DNA from: Thermoflexibacter ruber
Lineage (GTDB): Bacteria > Bacteroidota > Bacteroidia > Cytophagales > Thermoflexibacteraceae
Direction of reading: 5' to 3'
NCBI RefSeq assembly: GCF_900113045.1
Contig: NZ_FONY01000005.1
Location: forward strand, 1-64,000
Length of the DNA: 64,000 nucleotides
A program made the translations under genes and the position numbers. The notes under the pieces are model-generated. The model ran no database searches, was not told the origin of the DNA, and saw nothing but the letters and a program-made list of their open reading frames with translations. Positions 3,601 to 40,879 of this stretch are shown in pieces (position 1 is the stretch's first letter; each line of letters opens with the position of its first letter).

Positions 3601-6600
3601 GACCCTACCCCCAAAGTTGGCTTGCCAGAAGTGGAGTATTTGGAACTGTATAACAACTCACAAATTCCTTTTGAACTCAACGGAATCAAGTTGGAAGATA
3701 GCGGCGTGCAAAGACCCATAAGTAAAGAGCAAATCCTTCCAAATGAGTTTGTTATACTCTGCGCCGCAAGTCAAAAAGCTATTTTTGAACCTTTTGGAAA
3801 AGTTGTTACGGTTTCTTCCATGAGTTTGACCAACTCAGGAGAAGAACTCAAACTCATAGACCCCGATAATAACTTGATTTATAAGGTAAACTACTCAGAT
3901 ACTTGGTACAAAGACAATCAAAAAAAAGAAGGAGGTTGGTCTTTGGAAATCATTAATCCTAACTCAACCTGCGATGAGTCAAGCAATTGGATAGCTTCCC
4001 AAGACGAAAAGGGGGGAACGCCTGCCAAAGAAAATTCTGTTTGGAAAGAAAATCCTGATAAAACTACTCTCGAAATCAGCAAGTTGGAAATCATAGATTT
4101 GAAAACACTAAAATTGACTTTTTCTCAGAATTTGGATAGCTTGACTTTGGTGAATAAAAACAATTATCAAGTTTCCAACATCAACCTCTCTAATCTTATT
4201 TTTCAAGCAAAAAATGCTGTAAACTTGCAATTTTTCAATAACTTAGATAGTGCTACTTTGTATCAATTAGAAATCAAAAATGTGAAAGATTGTGCAGGAA
4301 ATGTGCTAAACACAGTCGTAGGGTTTGGCATTGGGAAAAGAGCAAAATTGCACGATTTGGTGATTTCAGAAATCATGGCAAATGAAATCTTGCCTACGCC
4401 CACTACTGAGCCAAGAGTACCACAAGCGGAGTATTTGGAAATTTACAACCGAACTAACTCGTTGATTATGTTAGGCAATCTGATTTTGAAAGATGCCACT
4501 GCCGAAATCAAAATGCCCAATACTTTCATCAAGCCCAAAAGCTACTTGGTGCTTACAAGTACCACAAAAGCAAGCCTTTTCAATGATAAAAATGTGATTG
4601 GAGTTACTTCTTTTATCACCTTGAACAATACGGGCGAGGAGTTAATCATCAAAGATAGTAGTGCTAACAACGTAATTCACAGCATAAACTACACAGATGC
4701 CTGGTACAAAGACGAGGAGAAGAAAAAAGGTGGTTGGTCTTTGGAAATGATTGATACAGAAAACTTTTGCGTTGAATCTGCGAATTGGAGAGCAAGCACT
4801 GCCCCCCAAGGAGGTACACCTGCCAAGTCTAATTCTGTTCTTGGAAAAGTGCAAGATAATACTCCTCCACAAGTTACTTCTTTTGCTATTCAAAATGATA
4901 ATCAAATTGTGCTAACTTTTAGCGAGTTGATAGAAGAAAGTAGTTTGAGAAATTTACAAAACTATGTCATTAACAATGGCTTATCGGTCAGCACTATTAC
5001 CATAGAAAGTCGCCAAAAAGTAATTTTAAATCTCCATCAGAAAATTAATGCCAATATGATTTATGAGTTGAAAATCAATGGCTTAAAAGATTGTGGAGAT
5101 AATAACTTGACTTACAGCACTTCTTTTGGTTTAGGTCGCTTGCCTTTGAAAAATGAAATTCTCATCACAGAAATTTTTGCAGATGAAACCCCACAAGTAG
5201 GCTTGCCTTTGGTAGAATACTTGGAAATCTTCAATAATTCCAATAGCGCGCTGACTTTGAATGGTTTACAATTGAGTGATGCTACAAGCACTGCTCGCTT
5301 GCCTAATGTAATTTTGCAACCACAAGAATATGCTGTTTTGTGCAGTAATACTCGGATTGATAGCTTTTTACGCATCATTCCAAAACCCAAAGTGATAGGA
5401 GTAAGCAGTTTTCCAAGTTTGAACAATACAGGAGAACTGCTTACTATCAGCAGAATAGATAATAGAGAGGTTATTCATTTTGTTAATTATTCAGATACTT
5501 GGTACAAAGACGCAGTAAAAAAGCAGGGTGGTTGGTCTTTGGAAATGATTGATATTCACAATATTTGTGGAGAAGAAGAAAATTGGACTGCCTCTATAGA
5601 CCCTTTGGGAGGCACACCAAGTCGACAAAATTCTGTATTTGCTTCTAATCCTGACATTACGCCTCCCCAAGTAAGCAATCTTAGTTTAATACAAAATCCA
5701 GACGAGCAGTTGCAAGTTATTTTTTCTGAAAAAATGGATACGCTTACTTTAAAGCAATTAGAAAATTACCAAGTAAGTAATTCATTATCAATTAAAAAGT
5801 TGGAGTTGGTTGATGAGAAAACAGTGAGATTTACGATTGATAAGAAAATAGAGGACAATTTGCTTTATACGTTGAGTGTTAAAAATGTGAAAGATTGTAG
5901 CGGGAATTTGATAGAAGAAAGTAATTTGACCTTTGGCAAAGGGAAAGCACCCAATTTTCACGAGTTGCTGATAACGGAAATCATGGCAGACCCTACGCCT
6001 GTGGTAAAACTCCCTGAAAGAGAATACGTTGAGATTTATAATAATACAGAGGCGGTTTTAAATCTTGCTGATGTCTATTTTCATGACGAAAGCGCAAGAA
6101 TCAGATTATCAGGTATTTTACGCCCAAGAGAATACGTAGTGTTATGTGCTAATTCGGTGTTGAAAGAGTTTGCTATACTTTTCCCAGACAGGCGTTTCAT
6201 TGGTTTGTCATCTTTGCCTTCTTTGACCAATGCAGGGGAAAAATTAGAGTTAAGAAACGGGAATGGAAATATTTTATTTTCAGTAACTTACAACGATACT
6301 TGGTACAGAGATGAGGTAAAAAAACAAGGTGGCTGGGCTTTGGAAATGATAGATACGAACAATCCTTGCGGGGAGGCAGAAAATTGGACGGCTTCGGAAA
6401 ATCCTTTGGGAGGAACACCCGCCTTGCAAAACTCTGTCAAAGGTTCTAACCCTGACCTTACACCTCCTATGGTAAGTGAATTGATAGTACAAAATAGTAC
6501 AATTTTGACCTTGCGGTTGAGCGAAAAAATAGATAGCCTTTATTTGACTAAAATTGAGAATTTTGACTTTGCCCCTACTTTGAAAATTAAGCAGATTGAT

Positions 6601-17775: not shown

Positions 17776-19269
17776 TTAATAGCCTGGATTCTGCTTTACA
17801 TTAGGATTTAAGTCTATTTCGTTCAATGGAATAGGGTAAAGCAAATTTTTGCTTACATCAAATCTGGCATCAGCCCGAGCAGAGCTAAAGTCCCAATTTG
17901 CTAAATTGATTTTTCCTGCGGCGTGCCAACGCTTCAAGTCAAGCCAACGATGCCCTTCTTCCCCTGCTAACTCTATAAATCGCTCGTCCATAATCCATTG
18001 CATAATTCTATTTCGGTCTGCTTCGCCTGTATTCCTATTGGCAGGGACGGTGCCAGAAGGGTTCATATTTCTCGCTCTGGTGCGTACTTGGTTGATTAAA
18101 CCAATAGCTTCAGCCGTAGAGCCTCCAGACTCCAAAATTGCCTCTGCTTTGAGCAAAAGCACATCAGCATAGCGTAAAATACGCGGATTGTTTACTGAAG
18201 CTACCCCAGACTGAGAGTATTGGTTACGTGCTACATATTTTCTAATGTCATTGCCTTGTAGAGTAATTGCCCTACGCGGGTCGTCTGTTTCAAAAGCATT
18301 TCTCAATTTTTGCGTAGAATAATGGTAGGGTTGTCCAAACAAACTCCAATGGTTTTCATAATAGCCCCAATACGCCGAGGTAGAACCCACATTATTATCA
18401 AAGTCATTGGAAAGCCATACATTGTCAAAAGAAGGCTGGCTGGCTTGAAATTCAAATAAGGACTCTTCATTGTTTTCTTTGTCAAAGGCAAAGTTGTCCC
18501 CAAAGTTTGCCACCAATGACAAACCTGAAATCTTATTGAAAGCAGCAACCGCAGCAGTAAAATCAGCTGTTGATTTCTTGTAAGAGCCTCTGAATACTAA
18601 GGCTTTTCCTAAAAATCCATTAGCTGAGTTTTTGGTAACACGTCCTCTATTTGCAACGTCCCAACGGTCAGGAAGTAAGTTAGCTGCCTCTGTAAAATCT
18701 TTGATGGCTTGGTCTAAGAGTTCTGTATCTTTGGAACTTGGGTTAGTAGTTTTGTCAGTAGATTGGACACGCTCAGTGATGACAGGCGAAGTACCATAGT
18801 AGTTAAACAACAAAAAGAAAGCATAACCTCTTAAAAACAAGGCTTCGCCGCGATGTATTTCTTTCAATCCTGGTGTTCTATATACTCCATCTTTTACTGT
18901 ATTGATTTTGTCCAATAAAGTATTGGCTCTATTTACTATTTGATAAGCTACCCTGTAGAAAGTATTTAACCTTCCCTCAGCAGGTTGCAAGTTAAAAAAT
19001 ACTTCATAGGCATCTGTTCCTGTGGTAGTAATATCGTCCCCGGGTAGTTGCCAAAAGCCATGAATAGGATTGTTATTATTAAACCAGTAAAAGTCCGTAA
19101 GTTTGGCATAAACGCCCAAAGAAGTGCGGTCAAAATCAATTTCTTCCGTAAAGAAGGAAGCCTCTGTAGGATTGAGAGGTTGCAAGTCCAAACGGCTTTC
19201 ATTGCAGGCAGTATAAACGCCAAAAGAAAGCACAAAAACCAAAAAGAGAGTGATTCTGTAATTTTTCAT
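17776..19269 (-). CDS. SusD/RagB-family outer-membrane lipoprotein
   Basis: The protein has 497 residues. A lipoprotein signal peptide (FLVFVLSFGVYTAC, lipidated C22) is followed by the SusD start DLQPLNPTEASFFTEE, the TPR-like region with ALFLRGYAFFLLFNYYG and the SusD C-terminal signature (MDERFIELAGEEGHRWLDLKRW, then LYPIPLNEIDLNPNVKQNPGY). SusD proteins form the lid of SusC transporters and bind the incoming glycan or peptide at the cell surface. It follows susC by 83 bp on the same strand, so the pair is one transport unit. The ligand cannot be deduced; the GH95 fucosidase nearby hints at fucosylated glycans. Confidence 0.95.
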   Translation of the reverse strand: MKNYRITLFLVFVLSFGVYTACNESRLDLQPLNPTEASFFTEEIDFDRTSLGVYAKLTDFYWFNNNNPIHGFWQLPGDDITTTGTDAYEVFFNLQPAEGRLNTFYRVAYQIVNRANTLLDKINTVKDGVYRTPGLKEIHRGEALFLRGYAFFLLFNYYGTSPVITERVQSTDKTTNPSSKDTELLDQAIKDFTEAANLLPDRWDVANRGRVTKNSANGFLGKALVFRGSYKKSTADFTAAVAAFNKISGLSLVANFGDNFAFDKENNEESLFEFQASQPSFDNVWLSNDFDNNVGSTSAYWGYYENHWSLFGQPYHYSTQKLRNAFETDDPRRAITLQGNDIRKYVARNQYSQSGVASVNNPRILRYADVLLLKAEAILESGGSTAEAIGLINQVRTRARNMNPSGTVPANRNTGEADRNRIMQWIMDERFIELAGEEGHRWLDLKRWHAAGKINLANWDFSSARADARFDVSKNLLYPIPLNEIDLNPNVKQNPGY

Positions 19270-19352: not shown

Positions 19353-22300
19353 TTAAAATGTTGCAGATAAACCAAGCATAAATGTTCGTGCAGGTGGTAG
19401 TATATCATTTTCTGGGTCCGGACCTGTCCATCTGGTAAAGGTAAATACGTTTGTTCCACTAATAAATACCCTACATCTGTCTATTACTCCTGTTTTACTC
19501 ATTAGACTTCTGGGTAAGCTATACCCCAATTGGAAGTTCTTTAATCGCATAAATCCTGCATTTTCTACCCAACGACTTGAGAATCTGTTATTTCCTGCGG
19601 GGTCGTTGCGTACTGCTCTTGGCATAGTGGTAGAAGGATTTTGCGGAGTCCAACGGTTCAACACTGTAGTCCATTGGTTTACTCCCGTGCTGCTCATGCT
19701 TTCTCCTCCCCAACGTTCTCCATTGATTTTCTGCACATCGCCAATACCTTGGAAGAATATAGACAAATCAAAATTTTTCCAATTTGCACTTAGATTGATA
19801 CCATAGAAATAACCAGCTATGGTTTTTCCTATATAAGTTCTATCAAAAGCATTTACCACATTGTCTGGCTCATCGCTGTATGTTTTCCCGGGTTCGGTGG
19901 GTGCGCTACGCACATCCTCGAAGTACATATCACCAGGCTTAAAGTTATTTCCGTTATTGGCATCACGCTTCGTTGCTGTCCAAGCATTAATTTCTTCTTG
20001 GCTTTGGAAGATACCCCCTACTTTATACCCCCATAAGAAAAACAGTGGATAGCCTACTTCTATCCTTCCGCCTTCACCACCAAAGGGCTGGTCTCTAAAT
20101 ACGCTAATAGTTCTGTTCCTTACCGTAGTTAAGTTACCACCTATGTTAAAGGTAAAATCTTCACCAATTTTTCCATTGTATCCTAATTGTAACTCTACCC
20201 CGCTATTTCTTACAGAAGCAATATTAAGAATAGGTTGATTTTCATTTCCTACGCTTGCAGGAAGTTGTGAGCCTTGCAAGATACCTGAGGTCAATCTACT
20301 GTAATATTCAACGGTTGCTGTAATCTTATTATTTAAGAAAACACCGTCAAACCCTACATTGGTGGTGCTTGCCACCTCCCAAGATAAATCTACTACAGGA
20401 AAATCAGGCAATCTTACCCCAAATCGCAAATTTCCTACTGCATTACCAGCCCCAGAGCCTGTAGCATAGTCAGGCGTAGTGGAAACACTGGACAAGAAAG
20501 CAAATGAAGCCGTTTCTTGATTTCCTAACTGCCCCCAACCCCCTCTTAGTTTTAAGTCATTGATGAAAGTCAGGTCTTTCATAAAGTCTTCTCGGCTAAT
20601 TCTCCATGCCAAAGCAAAGGAAGGGAAAGTACCCCACTTGTACCCTGGTGCAAAGCGAGAGCTTCCGTCCCTACGTACAGTAACATCTGCATAGTATTTG
20701 TCGGCATATTTGTAGCTAACTCTACCCATGTAACCTTGTAGCCTATTGATGTTGCGGAAAGAGCCTGCATTAGAGAAAGGAGGAAGGTTATTGATGTTTC
20801 TGAACAGAGGGTCAGAAAATGGTATCTGTCCAGAAGAAGCCTGCAAAAAGTCATACTTATATTCTTGGTCCATGGCATTCAAAATCACATCAAAGCTATG
20901 GTCTCCAAAAGATTTGTTGTAAGAAACACTAAACTCTTTCACAAAATTAGTATTTCTTGTATGTCTTTCTCCATATCCTCCTTTTGATGTACCGTCATTA
21001 CCAGAGTAGGGATTGCCTGGCGTTTGCGAGAACAAATAATTGTTAAAGTCATTCCAATCGTTTCTTTTATTGTAATACCAGTCAGCACTGAATGTACCTC
21101 TAAATTTCAATCCTTTTACAGGCTCCATTTGCAAATAGGCTGTTCCCATATTCCTCAACATATTATAGCGGGTATCATTGAGTGCTTGTTGAGCGAAAAC
21201 ATTATTGTTCGTTTCTACACCCCAAAGTAGTGTAGGGTCACCATCAAAGACTTGGGCAGGAATAGGGAGTAAGAACAAAGGTCTTTGTGTATTTTGCCCT
21301 AACTCAGGATTAGGTCTAAACCTTGCGCTAATGGAGGGAGCGAAACCTGTGGGGTGAGTAGGGTCAAAAATTTGCTGCCAAGGCGAAGTTCTTGACACAT
21401 ATCCTAAATCGGTACGCGTATTGTCTAAAGCATTAATGTAACCTAAGCGGTAGGTAGCTCCTACTTCAAATATTTTAGAAATATTGCTTTTCACATTGGT
21501 TGCAAAAGAATAACGCTCCATGTCGTTCTGAACTAAGGTGCTTTGGGTTCTTCCATAACCAGCAGATACATAGTAAGTCGTCGCATCATTGCCTCCATAT
21601 ACTTTGGCACTATAGTCTTCTGTGATGGCATTTCTTTGGATAAGTGGTGTCTGCCAATCTACTGTAGGTCTATTGCCTAAAAATGCTGGACTTTGAGGGT
21701 TAAACTCTGGCGGAAGGTTCTTAGCTTCATCAGGGTTATTGGCATAAGCCTCTTGATATAGGCGAGTATATTGGTTCACATCAAGCATATCAAATTTCTT
21801 TGGAATATTCTGCACCCCACGAGAAGCGTTAAATTCTACTTTAGGTCTGCCTGATTTTCCTCGCTTTGTAGTGATTAAAATTACTCCATTGGAAGCACGA
21901 ACTCCGTAGATAGCGGCAGCAGAAGCATCTTTCAATACAGAAATAGATTCAATATCGTTAGGATTTATCAAGTTTAGTACGTTCACATTGCCGCGAATAT
22001 CTCCTATTAAGCCACCGCTTACGCCATCACCAAACTCAGTAAGAGGAATTCCATCAACTACATACAAGGGTTCTGCATAGCCAAAGGTACTTACTCCACG
22101 AATACGCACTTGTGGACGTGCATTAGGGTTGCCGCCGGGTGTAGATACAAACACCCCTGCCATTCTCCCTTGCATAGATAACTCTGGCTGCATCGCTACA
22201 CTTTTAGCTATATCTTCTGCCCCAACCACAGATACTGCTCCCGTCAAATCCTTTTTATCTCGTTCCCCATACCCAATGACTACTATATCCTGCAAGGTTT

Positions 22301-23018
22301 TCACATCTAAAGCCATTTTGACATCAATAGTAGTGCGATTTCCAATTTCTACCTCTTGAGTAGCAAAACCCACATAAGAGAAAACCAAAGTAGTCGTGTT
22401 ATCAGGTACAGAGAGGGAATATTTACCTTCGGAATCAGTAATAGTACCTACATTTGTTCCTTTGGCAACAATGTTTACTCCGGGAATAGGGCTATTGTCT
22501 TCCGCTGACGTTACTGTACCCGTAATACGTTTTTCTATTCTCAATAACTCCCTCTTTATACCTGCATTTAGCAAAGGCAAGGTGCTTATTTCCAAAGGAG
22601 TAAAAACCGAAGAGGCTGTATTAGGAATTTCCTTTATGTTCTCTTTGGGTTTTTCGGGCGTAATAATAAAGAGTTGGCTTTCCATCTGTTGATAACGCAA
22701 GCCCAAAGGCACAAGCAGGTTTTCTAATACTTGCTCTATTTTATCGCTTTGCGGAATAGTCGTTACAGTAAGTTTATCTGCTTTTACCGTCCCTGCATAA
22801 ACAAAGCGAACATTGTACTTGCTTTCTAAATTTTTAAGTACATTTTTCAGACTTTGTACGTTTTCTTTTTTCAAATCTCCTACTTGATAGCGGAGAGAAA
22901 GGTCATCTTGGCGACGTGCCAAGGTTTGTGCTTGCAAACTCGTCTGCAATAGGAGTGCAAACGCCGTGATAAAATAATAAAATCTCCAATTGGTTTTGTA
23001 AAGTAATTTCGTTTTCAT
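19353..23018 (-). CDS. SusC/RagA-family TonB-dependent transporter with STN signalling domain
   Basis: The protein has 1221 residues. The order is: signal peptide (YFITAFALLLQTSLQAQ), an STN (secretin/TonB N-terminal) domain ~residues 45-120 (LKNVLKNLESKYNVRFVYAG), a carboxypeptidase-regulatory-like Ig domain ~165-235 (ITGTVTSAEDNSPIPGVNIV), a plug with DLTGAVSVV and the RagA motif GVRASNGVILITTKRGK, and a 22-strand-type barrel ending in an aromatic residue (MLGLSATF). It imports large ligands together with SusD, powered by TonB. The STN domain is the part that in regulated systems contacts a FecR anti-sigma factor; fecR lies just 64 bp upstream. There is no sigma gene adjacent, which is unusual. 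Confidence 0.95.
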   Translation of the reverse strand: MKTKLLYKTNWRFYYFITAFALLLQTSLQAQTLARRQDDLSLRYQVGDLKKENVQSLKNVLKNLESKYNVRFVYAGTVKADKLTVTTIPQSDKIEQVLENLLVPLGLRYQQMESQLFIITPEKPKENIKEIPNTASSVFTPLEISTLPLLNAGIKRELLRIEKRITGTVTSAEDNSPIPGVNIVAKGTNVGTITDSEGKYSLSVPDNTTTLVFSYVGFATQEVEIGNRTTIDVKMALDVKTLQDIVVIGYGERDKKDLTGAVSVVGAEDIAKSVAMQPELSMQGRMAGVFVSTPGGNPNARPQVRIRGVSTFGYAEPLYVVDGIPLTEFGDGVSGGLIGDIRGNVNVLNLINPNDIESISVLKDASAAAIYGVRASNGVILITTKRGKSGRPKVEFNASRGVQNIPKKFDMLDVNQYTRLYQEAYANNPDEAKNLPPEFNPQSPAFLGNRPTVDWQTPLIQRNAITEDYSAKVYGGNDATTYYVSAGYGRTQSTLVQNDMERYSFATNVKSNISKIFEVGATYRLGYINALDNTRTDLGYVSRTSPWQQIFDPTHPTGFAPSISARFRPNPELGQNTQRPLFLLPIPAQVFDGDPTLLWGVETNNNVFAQQALNDTRYNMLRNMGTAYLQMEPVKGLKFRGTFSADWYYNKRNDWNDFNNYLFSQTPGNPYSGNDGTSKGGYGERHTRNTNFVKEFSVSYNKSFGDHSFDVILNAMDQEYKYDFLQASSGQIPFSDPLFRNINNLPPFSNAGSFRNINRLQGYMGRVSYKYADKYYADVTVRRDGSSRFAPGYKWGTFPSFALAWRISREDFMKDLTFINDLKLRGGWGQLGNQETASFAFLSSVSTTPDYATGSGAGNAVGNLRFGVRLPDFPVVDLSWEVASTTNVGFDGVFLNNKITATVEYYSRLTSGILQGSQLPASVGNENQPILNIASVRNSGVELQLGYNGKIGEDFTFNIGGNLTTVRNRTISVFRDQPFGGEGGRIEVGYPLFFLWGYKVGGIFQSQEEINAWTATKRDANNGNNFKPGDMYFEDVRSAPTEPGKTYSDEPDNVVNAFDRTYIGKTIAGYFYGINLSANWKNFDLSIFFQGIGDVQKINGERWGGESMSSTGVNQWTTVLNRWTPQNPSTTMPRAVRNDPAGNNRFSSRWVENAGFMRLKNFQLGYSLPRSLMSKTGVIDRCRVFISGTNVFTFTRWTGPDPENDILPPARTFMLGLSATF

Positions 23019-23082: not shown

Positions 23083-24150
23083 CTATCTTTTCCGAGAAAA
23101 AATAACTTCTTTGTCCCTTTTTTCTATTTTTATATCCAAAGCGGTAGATAGCACTTCAAAAAATAGGGTTTCGTTCTTGCAAGGAATAACCCCTGTTAAG
23201 GTTTCTTTCGCCATTTTCTTATCTTGGAACCTGACCTTTAAGCCATAAACTTCCTCTATCTTCAGAGCAATCTCCGCAAGAGGGGTATTCTCAAAAACAA
23301 ACTCCTGAGCTTTCCAAGAAGTATAAAGTTCGGTTTTCACTTTTTTCTTAGTGAAGGTTTGCTTATCAGCAAACACTTCTACGATTTCATTAGGGAGCAT
23401 TTCTACGGTTTGCGTTGGCTTGTTCTCTCCTTTGATATTGAGTTTTACTTTTCCCTCGTTGAGAACAACTGCTACTTGATTCTGGCGATTCCATACGTTA
23501 AATTGCGTTCCTACTACCTCTACGTCCACATTGGCAGAGTGAACCGTAAACTTTACCAAACCCTTGTTTACCTCATTTGCTTGTTTCTCTACTTCGAAAA
23601 AAGCTTCTCCATTAAGCCAAACCTCTCTACTTTTTCCCTGTTCCCAATTTTTAGCAAAGGTCAAAGTAGAATTACTGTTTAGCGTAACTTTTGAGCCATC
23701 TGGCAGGGTAATGCTTTGCGTTTCTCCGTAAGCAGTCTGATAGGTTACATTTCCTAAATAATTGGAAATGAAGAAATAAGCTAAGGCACTCAGCGTAAAT
23801 AATACAAGTAATCCCGCCGCTATTCTTCTCGCTTGCGAGGATAAGGCAAAGACTTTGCGTTTTTCGGTATTTCTTGTAATTGTAAGTATAGGTTGCTTTT
23901 GTTTGCGAAGGCTCATCTGCAGCCTTGCAATCGCCTCTTGGGTTTCTTGAGCATATTTCTCAGCATTCTTATTGGGTAAAAGTGAACGCAATAAAGCAGT
24001 AGCTTCCTCAATTTGGGTTTGTTTTTCAGGGTATTTTTCTAAAAAATTTTCCCAAAATATGTCTGCGTCTTTACTTTCTTTGAAAACCCATCGCTGAAAA
24101 GACTCATCTGCGGCGAAATCTTCCGTCAGGTATGTAAGGTATTTCTCCAT
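23083..24150 (-). CDS. FecR-family anti-sigma factor
   Basis: The protein has 355 residues. The cytoplasmic N-terminal part (~1-105) would bind an ECF sigma factor; one membrane helix lies at ~108-130 (IAAGLLVLFTLSALAYFFIS). The periplasmic FecR domain follows (YGETQSITLPDGSKVTLNSN, WLNGEAFFEVEK, VVGTQFNVWN), and a C-terminal DUF4974 domain (FENTPLAEIALKIEEVYGL). In the known FecIRA scheme it passes a signal from the STN domain of the outer-membrane transporter to a sigma factor. Here it precedes susC and susD in the same direction, but the expected ECF sigma gene is absent; the gene upstream is a protease. Its start codon directly abuts a perfect inverted repeat at 24153-24195. Confidence 0.93.
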   Translation of the reverse strand: MEKYLTYLTEDFAADESFQRWVFKESKDADIFWENFLEKYPEKQTQIEEATALLRSLLPNKNAEKYAQETQEAIARLQMSLRKQKQPILTITRNTEKRKVFALSSQARRIAAGLLVLFTLSALAYFFISNYLGNVTYQTAYGETQSITLPDGSKVTLNSNSTLTFAKNWEQGKSREVWLNGEAFFEVEKQANEVNKGLVKFTVHSANVDVEVVGTQFNVWNRQNQVAVVLNEGKVKLNIKGENKPTQTVEMLPNEIVEVFADKQTFTKKKVKTELYTSWKAQEFVFENTPLAEIALKIEEVYGLKVRFQDKKMAKETLTGVIPCKNETLFFEVLSTALDIKIEKRDKEVIFSRKR

Positions 24151-24152
24151 TG

Positions 24153-24195
24153 GCTTTCCTCTTATAAATTTTAATTTTGTAACTAAGAGGAAAGC
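24153..24195 (-). promoter_or_regulatory. Perfect 12-bp inverted repeat abutting the fecR start codon
   Basis: GCTTTCCTCTTA (24153-24164) and TAAGAGGAAAGC (24184-24195) are exact reverse complements around a 19-nt AT-rich loop. In the fecR mRNA the second arm (TAAGAGGAAAGC) ends two bases before the ATG and contains the only purine-rich, SD-like run (AGAGGA). The structure could gate fecR translation, bind a regulator, or end transcription of the upstream protease gene (45 bp past its stop); no T-run follows, which argues against an intrinsic terminator. Confidence 0.75.
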
Positions 24196-24239
24196 AAGGA
24201 AATTTTCTAACCAAAAATTTTAAACTTTTTTTACAAATT

Positions 24240-32345: not shown

Positions 32346-32379
32346 AAAGAGGCTGTCTTTTTTGGACAGCCTCTTTATT
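32346..32379. terminator. Bidirectional terminator between the M16 gene and the coiled-coil gene
   Basis: A perfect 12-bp stem (32346-32357 with 32365-32376, core GAGGCTGTC) and 7-nt loop separate two convergent genes. It has A-runs on the left and T-runs on the right, as expected for termination in both directions. Confidence 0.9.
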
Positions 32380-40846: not shown

Positions 40847-40879
40847 AAAAACCTTTGCAATTTTTTTGCAAAGGTTTTT
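40847..40879 (+). terminator. Terminator after the tRNA genes
   Basis: A 14-bp stem (40847-40860 with 40866-40879, core CCTTTGCAA) and 5-nt T loop, ending in TTTTT. Being flanked by A-run and T-run, it may work in both directions. Confidence 0.88.

Follow-up and report, generated by a model that had tools for sequence, protein, structure and literature searches.

A perfect inverted repeat at the start of a fecR gene in Thermoflexibacter ruber, its possible bearing on read-through RNA, and a promoter-like motif in fecR leaders

In Thermoflexibacter ruber, a perfect inverted repeat ends two bases 5' of the ATG of an anti-sigma factor gene. Its position raises the question of whether the repeat controls the translation of this gene and, if so, in which transcripts. 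We analysed the locus within a stretch of 64,000 nucleotides (assembly GCF_900113045.1, contig NZ_FONY01000005.1, positions 1 to 64,000), hereafter referred to as the window. The repeat is real and lineage-specific, and most likely it either blocks the translation of RNA reading in from the upstream gene or does nothing.

The repeat and its gene neighbourhood

The arms of the repeat, which span positions 24153-24164 and 24184-24195, pair at 12 of 12 positions around a 19-nt AT-rich loop (24165-24183) and comprise, with the loop, 43 bases. On the minus strand, on which the fecR ATG is located at 24150, the 5' (upstream) arm is 24184-24195 (sense GCTTTCCTCTTA), and the 3' (downstream) arm is 24153-24164 (sense TAAGAGGAAAGC). 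The latter contains the purine run AAGAGGAAAG. An earlier note, made from the letters alone, had described a 12-bp repeat of this geometry, and its coordinates proved exact.

The fecR gene (23083-24150, minus strand) encodes a 355-residue FecR-family anti-sigma factor featuring both the FecR domain (PF04773, 61.9 bits; cut-off, 24) and the FecR_C domain (PF16344, 44.2 bits; cut-off, 24.4). Downstream, on the same strand, are genes encoding a SusC-like TonB-dependent receptor (19353-23018) and a SusD-like protein (17776-19269), as in the FecI/FecR/TonB-dependent transducer systems of SusC/D loci in Bacteroidota. The locus differs from these systems in that no cognate-type sigma gene is adjacent. 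A neighbouring FecI-type ECF sigma gene, which is usual though not strictly required for fecR, is absent, and the upstream position is occupied by a subtilase gene (PF00082; 24240-29258, minus strand), the product of which carries a type IX secretion C-terminal sorting domain (PF18962). The protease gene ends 89 nt 5' of the fecR ATG on the same strand, and 44 nt from the stem.

The only clear ortholog of this fecR gene (66-67% identity) was found in genome G002, in which an ECF sigma gene lies directly upstream, in the place held by the protease gene in the window. The T. ruber ortholog of that sigma gene (80% identity) maps to contig C80 (G000:C80:16864-17442), with no fecR adjoining; fecR in this genome has lost its neighbouring sigma gene. 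Another sigma/fecR pair is joined in the congener G001 (C46) and parted in both T. ruber and G002. Homologs of its sigma gene map to C24 (L053) in T. ruber and to C21 (L050) in G002, and those of its fecR gene to C74 and C180. The adjacency of protease and fecR is special to T. ruber: in G001 and G002, the homologous protease gene is not located beside fecR, and the genes flanking the protease gene differ across all three genomes. The idea that fecR translation is coupled to that of a preceding sigma gene was also considered; it does not fit the window, where the protease gene stands upstream.

Frequency and conservation of the repeat

Perfect repeats are abundant in this genome. Five repeats of at least 12 bp, with loops of up to 30 nt, occur in the window, as against 0.15 expected per 64 kb of random sequence with the dinucleotide make-up of the window. 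In 464 kb, corresponding to the window and 20 further stretches of a 5.5-Mb genome assembled in 123 contigs, we counted 32 repeats of at least 12 bp (loops of up to 40 nt), 15 of which have loops longer than 10 nt. The corresponding figures in four simulated Markov-2 sequences were 1-5 and 0-5, and the frequency of these repeats in the genome is about ten times that in the simulations. One repeat elsewhere in the window, at 453-486, consists of 13-bp arms (ATTCCTCTGATAT/ATATCAGAGGAAT) and an 8-nt loop, and precedes an open reading frame of 2608 codons; no long T run follows it.

Among the 313 genes in the 464 kb, only fecR has a perfect repeat of at least 9 bp that ends in its start region (0/312 for the others). 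The 53-nt sense strand has a predicted folding energy of -16.6 kcal/mol (z -5.3), a value equalled by none of 200 shuffled sequences, and the 117-nt fecR leader folds at -24 kcal/mol (z -2.6 relative to shuffles). Because repeats of at least 12 bp are common in the genome, the position of the repeat, though striking, could still be due to chance when the whole genome is considered; if they were spread evenly over an estimated 4,500 or so starts, a few coincidences with start codons would be expected.

An Rfam search of the repeat yielded no family match, and the two chance-level matches obtained fell far below the gathering score. No relative was found in the viral contigs searched, and the sole related record in the genome-contig collection was G002. 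The leader of the G002 ortholog aligns well with the window leader, yet it folds like shuffled sequences (z -0.11), with a half-paired fold at the site of the window repeat. In the MAFFT alignment, six of the 12 pairs are standard in G002, three of these being G-U, and no double change is observed, whereas a hand alignment made by eye keeps five pairs, one of which is a double change. Compensatory changes in the arms, which the earlier note had suggested looking for, did not emerge from the MAFFT comparison. When the repeat was assessed as a conserved RNA element (riboswitch, leader or thermometer), its arms turned out to be neither conserved nor co-varying in G002.

A repeat of the same dimensions, with perfect 12-bp arms and a 19-nt loop, is present in the congener G001 at a paralogous fecR gene (L043, 40% identity; start at 4113, minus strand) located 52 nt downstream of a sigma gene. 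This repeat extends from about 41 bases 5' of the ATG into the ATG and is unrelated in sequence to that of the window. The match is AT-rich and is a single case.

A start hairpin as a general trait of fecR genes was rejected. Perfect repeats of at least 9 bp were found at the start in three of 55 fecR leaders, including that of the window, and repeats of at least 8 bp in none of 54 independent leaders. The repeat-at-start count took in 21 survey loci with reliable starts; L018 was dropped because of its doubtful start, even though it favoured the trait. L018 carries a 12-bp perfect repeat (TGCAAACGATTG, 12-nt loop), which ends about 4 nt before the doubtful fecR start and each arm of which resembles, by eye, a LacI-type operator. 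In a first fold survey, the controls for which came from one genome only, fecR leaders appeared more stable than controls (z -0.80 and -0.08, respectively; p 7e-4). With matched order-level controls, no enrichment in z was observed for fecR leaders (p 0.1). Among 22 family leaders, the test on z gave p 0.24 and that on start pairing p 0.023; an enrichment in pairing at the family level (p 0.004, n = 10) had no counterpart in z when the set was widened.

Hairpins that are long but imperfect, with the fecR ATG in the 3' arm, are present, in nearly identical form, in two related genomes (L153 and L154; z -4.8 and -4.6). They were not retained as kin to the window repeat, since such cases occur also among controls (22/573 with z < -3). 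One control gene (L192:9523), which by eye resembles an IS200-type tnpA, has its start codon in a hairpin (z -7.9) and gave the fold survey a positive control that had not been planned.

The repeat may have no function, having arisen in a drifting AT-rich leader as a lineage-specific repeat, either by chance or through template-switch "correction" of half-paired sequence, for which a fold such as that of G002 would be the raw material. The loss of half of the pairs in the nearest ortholog, the lack of repeats in the 54 independent leaders and the genome-wide abundance of long perfect repeats all favour this explanation. The absence of comparable repeats at the 312 other starts, the folding z-score of the 53-nt strand and the second 12-bp/19-nt repeat at the paralogous fecR gene of the congener argue against it. 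We regard a lack of function as a serious possibility, albeit short of probable, and as the chief competitor of the explanation favoured below.

A promoter-like motif in fecR leaders

Comparison of leader sequences revealed a two-part promoter-like motif, AAGTGAGTA-N16-CTCTTT, which is shared by fecR leaders from across the order and is strong in the aligned G002 ortholog; the upstream block, AAGTGAGTA, is common to four fecR leaders of the genus. Starting from seeds chosen by eye, a gapped model was derived from 49 non-redundant leaders, with the window and the G002 ortholog held out, and had the form AAGTGAGTA - N16 (17) - CTCTTT. Five of 39 short leaders lacked a usable start. When leaders were scored with the model trained without their own family, 17 of 55 reached a control p of 0.05 or less, and nine a p of 0.01 or less. 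The independent set initially included 60 leaders from other genomes; two that lacked an ATG and four redundant ones were set aside, leaving 54. Scores of at least 12 bits were obtained for eight of these and for 5/275 order-level controls (Fisher 2e-4), and scores of at least 14 bits for four and 0/275, respectively; the distributions of all scores also differ (Mann-Whitney 8.5e-6). Copies of the motif were noted, across families, in the fecR leaders L033, L034, L038, L006, L168, L136 and L248.

In the G002 ortholog, which had been held out, the copy reaches 14.1 bits, as do 0.6% of controls. The window copy, found in the same aligned place, is weaker: it scores 7.2 bits, a value reached by 28% of 312 control upstream regions, or 8.2 bits (p 0.20) with the model trained without its family. 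The predicted upstream promoter block (24207-24216, minus strand; TTTTGGTTAG) is aligned with TTTTGATTAG in G002, and the predicted -10 block (24183-24190, minus strand; CCTCTTAG) with GCTCTTTG. The final seven bases of the repeat's 5' arm belong to this predicted -10 block. In the paralogous fecR gene of G001, the predicted -10 box is located within the repeat loop. No copy of the motif was found ahead of the susC and susD genes tested or the protease gene, and those ahead of the sigma genes tested are weak, the best scores being 8.6 and 10.6 bits in two genes. On the basis of its form and place, we infer that the motif is an ECF promoter.

A search of open-licence papers on FecI-type promoter motifs in Bacteroidetes revealed nothing recognised as describing AAGTGAGTA-N16-CTCTTT. 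Two papers describe a CGT-box motif, SM6, as an ECF promoter in F. psychrophilum (PMC9723704), and PM2-like promoters for SigW-1 and SigH-1 of B. thetaiotaomicron (PMC12596196); a 2020 paper states that no motif was known for any alternative ECF factor of B. thetaiotaomicron (PMC7366714). As in these systems, conserved elements lie upstream of ECF-linked genes. The fecR motif differs from the ECF or non-canonical motifs described in these papers: it lacks a CGT box and is located ahead of fecR.

Start accessibility and read-through RNA

Given the overlap of the predicted -10 block with the 5' arm, transcripts from the predicted fecR promoter would begin in the loop, at about 24173-24178 as judged from the -10 spacing, and would lack the hairpin. 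The earlier note had named arms not conserved among close relatives, or a transcription start between the hairpin and fecR, as findings that would refute it; the comparison with G002 and the best-supported predicted start, which lies within the loop, go partly against the note. In folding predictions, start pairing was shown to be lost when the 5' arm is missing: the mean unpaired probability of positions -14..+3 is 0.16 in RNA with both arms and 0.75 in RNA that starts in the loop. The predicted fold of the former extends the 12-bp hairpin to 19 bp with bulges, and its stem covers the start, as expected of a read-through-blocking hairpin.

In Bacteroidota, structure over a start codon is expected to impede initiation. 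According to two reports, SD-like motifs occur at background levels at Bacteroidetes starts (PMC3155529; PMC6847099), a structure of -5.2 kcal/mol causes a fivefold drop in a Prevotella reporter (PMC3155529), and data on F. johnsoniae agree that initiation depends on an unstructured start (PMC6847099). In T. ruber, SD-like 4-mers are found at -15..-4 in 16 of 313 genes, and at -45..-34, taken as background, in 19 of 313. As these 4-mers do not exceed background, the purine run of the 3' arm, although present, is not a ribosome-binding signal, and the masking of an SD sequence envisaged in the earlier note falls away. No 16S rRNA from which to derive the anti-SD was found in the three genomes.

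The best explanation, which we put forward tentatively and with somewhat less than even confidence, is that the hairpin acts only in RNA that reads through from the protease gene, closing the fecR start there. An ECF-type sigma factor would use the weaker motif copy of the window, transcription would begin in the 19-nt loop, and the resulting RNA, carrying the 3' arm only, would be freely translated. RNA entering from the protease gene would carry both arms and form the 12-bp hairpin over about -14..+7, thereby hiding the fecR start. The hairpin would keep read-through transcription from yielding anti-sigma factor, as in some insertion-sequence transposase genes. Read-through into fecR is likely, to judge from the sequence, because no terminator-like site was found on the minus strand in the 89-nt gap between the protease gene and fecR. 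Since the predicted fecR promoter would start RNA inside the repeat, the repeat probably matters just for RNA entering from the neighbouring gene.

The earlier note had suggested that an RNA or DNA element at this place would add a control point; taken as a model, this means a hairpin in every fecR mRNA that lowers or regulates FecR translation. The start is indeed predicted to be buried when the RNA carries both arms, but mRNA transcribed from the best-supported predicted promoter would be without the hairpin, SD-like motifs are unused in this genome, and the arms are not conserved; as a model for all fecR mRNAs, it is unlikely. A DNA operator, in which a dimeric regulator binds both arms over the -10 box, would agree with the location of the arms on either side of the predicted -10 and start site, and with their spacing of 31 bp, about three helical turns from centre to centre. 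However, the arm is not a repeated site: an exact match to the arm occurs at one other place in 5.5 Mb (C69:10125), and copies with at most one mismatch are as common as those of the reversed pattern (21+20 vs 21+19). The G001 repeat, moreover, is of unrelated sequence, and we consider an operator improbable. A dispersed repeat element was rejected, the arm not being repeated across the genome.

In a check for an intrinsic terminator (a G+C-rich stem followed by a T run), no T run was found after the repeat on the minus strand. By eye, the sequences at 32346-32376 and 40847-40879 resemble terminators, and the fecR start repeat does not. The 3' end of the G002 protease homolog features its own hairpin with a T run, whereas that of the G001 homolog has none. 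The earlier note had offered as an alternative that the repeat is a 3' structure of the protease mRNA. Its place after the protease stop codon and ahead of fecR would suit such a structure or a terminator, but this reading is very improbable: no T run follows, no terminator-like site was found in the gap, neither protease homolog has the repeat, and the leader aligns with the G002 fecR leader, where no protease gene stands.

Discussion

The proposed block of read-through RNA has known counterparts. In the transposase genes of IS10, IS50 and IS200, hairpins at the start codon protect from read-through transcription. As predicted for the T. ruber locus, transcription of the gene itself begins downstream of the 5' arm, so that only incoming RNA folds over the start codon. 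The T. ruber case differs in that the gene is a chromosomal anti-sigma gene and the repeat is not conserved; both its transcription start and read-through are predictions.

A broader scheme, in which the fecR genes of the order have their own ECF-type promoter and some leaders of the genus add a read-through-silencing hairpin, is rather doubtful. An ECF-type promoter directly before fecR would set the transcription of the anti-sigma and SusC/D genes apart from that of the sigma gene. If read-through RNA is indeed blocked, the output of anti-sigma factor would stay tied to its own regulated promoter after the scrambling of gene order, and stray RNA would be made untranslatable. The wider gain lies in the promoter-like motif of fecR leaders and in the split sigma/anti-sigma pairs. 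With few motifs in print, the fecR motif would offer a starting point for locating the sites that FecI-type sigma factors recognise in Bacteroidota.
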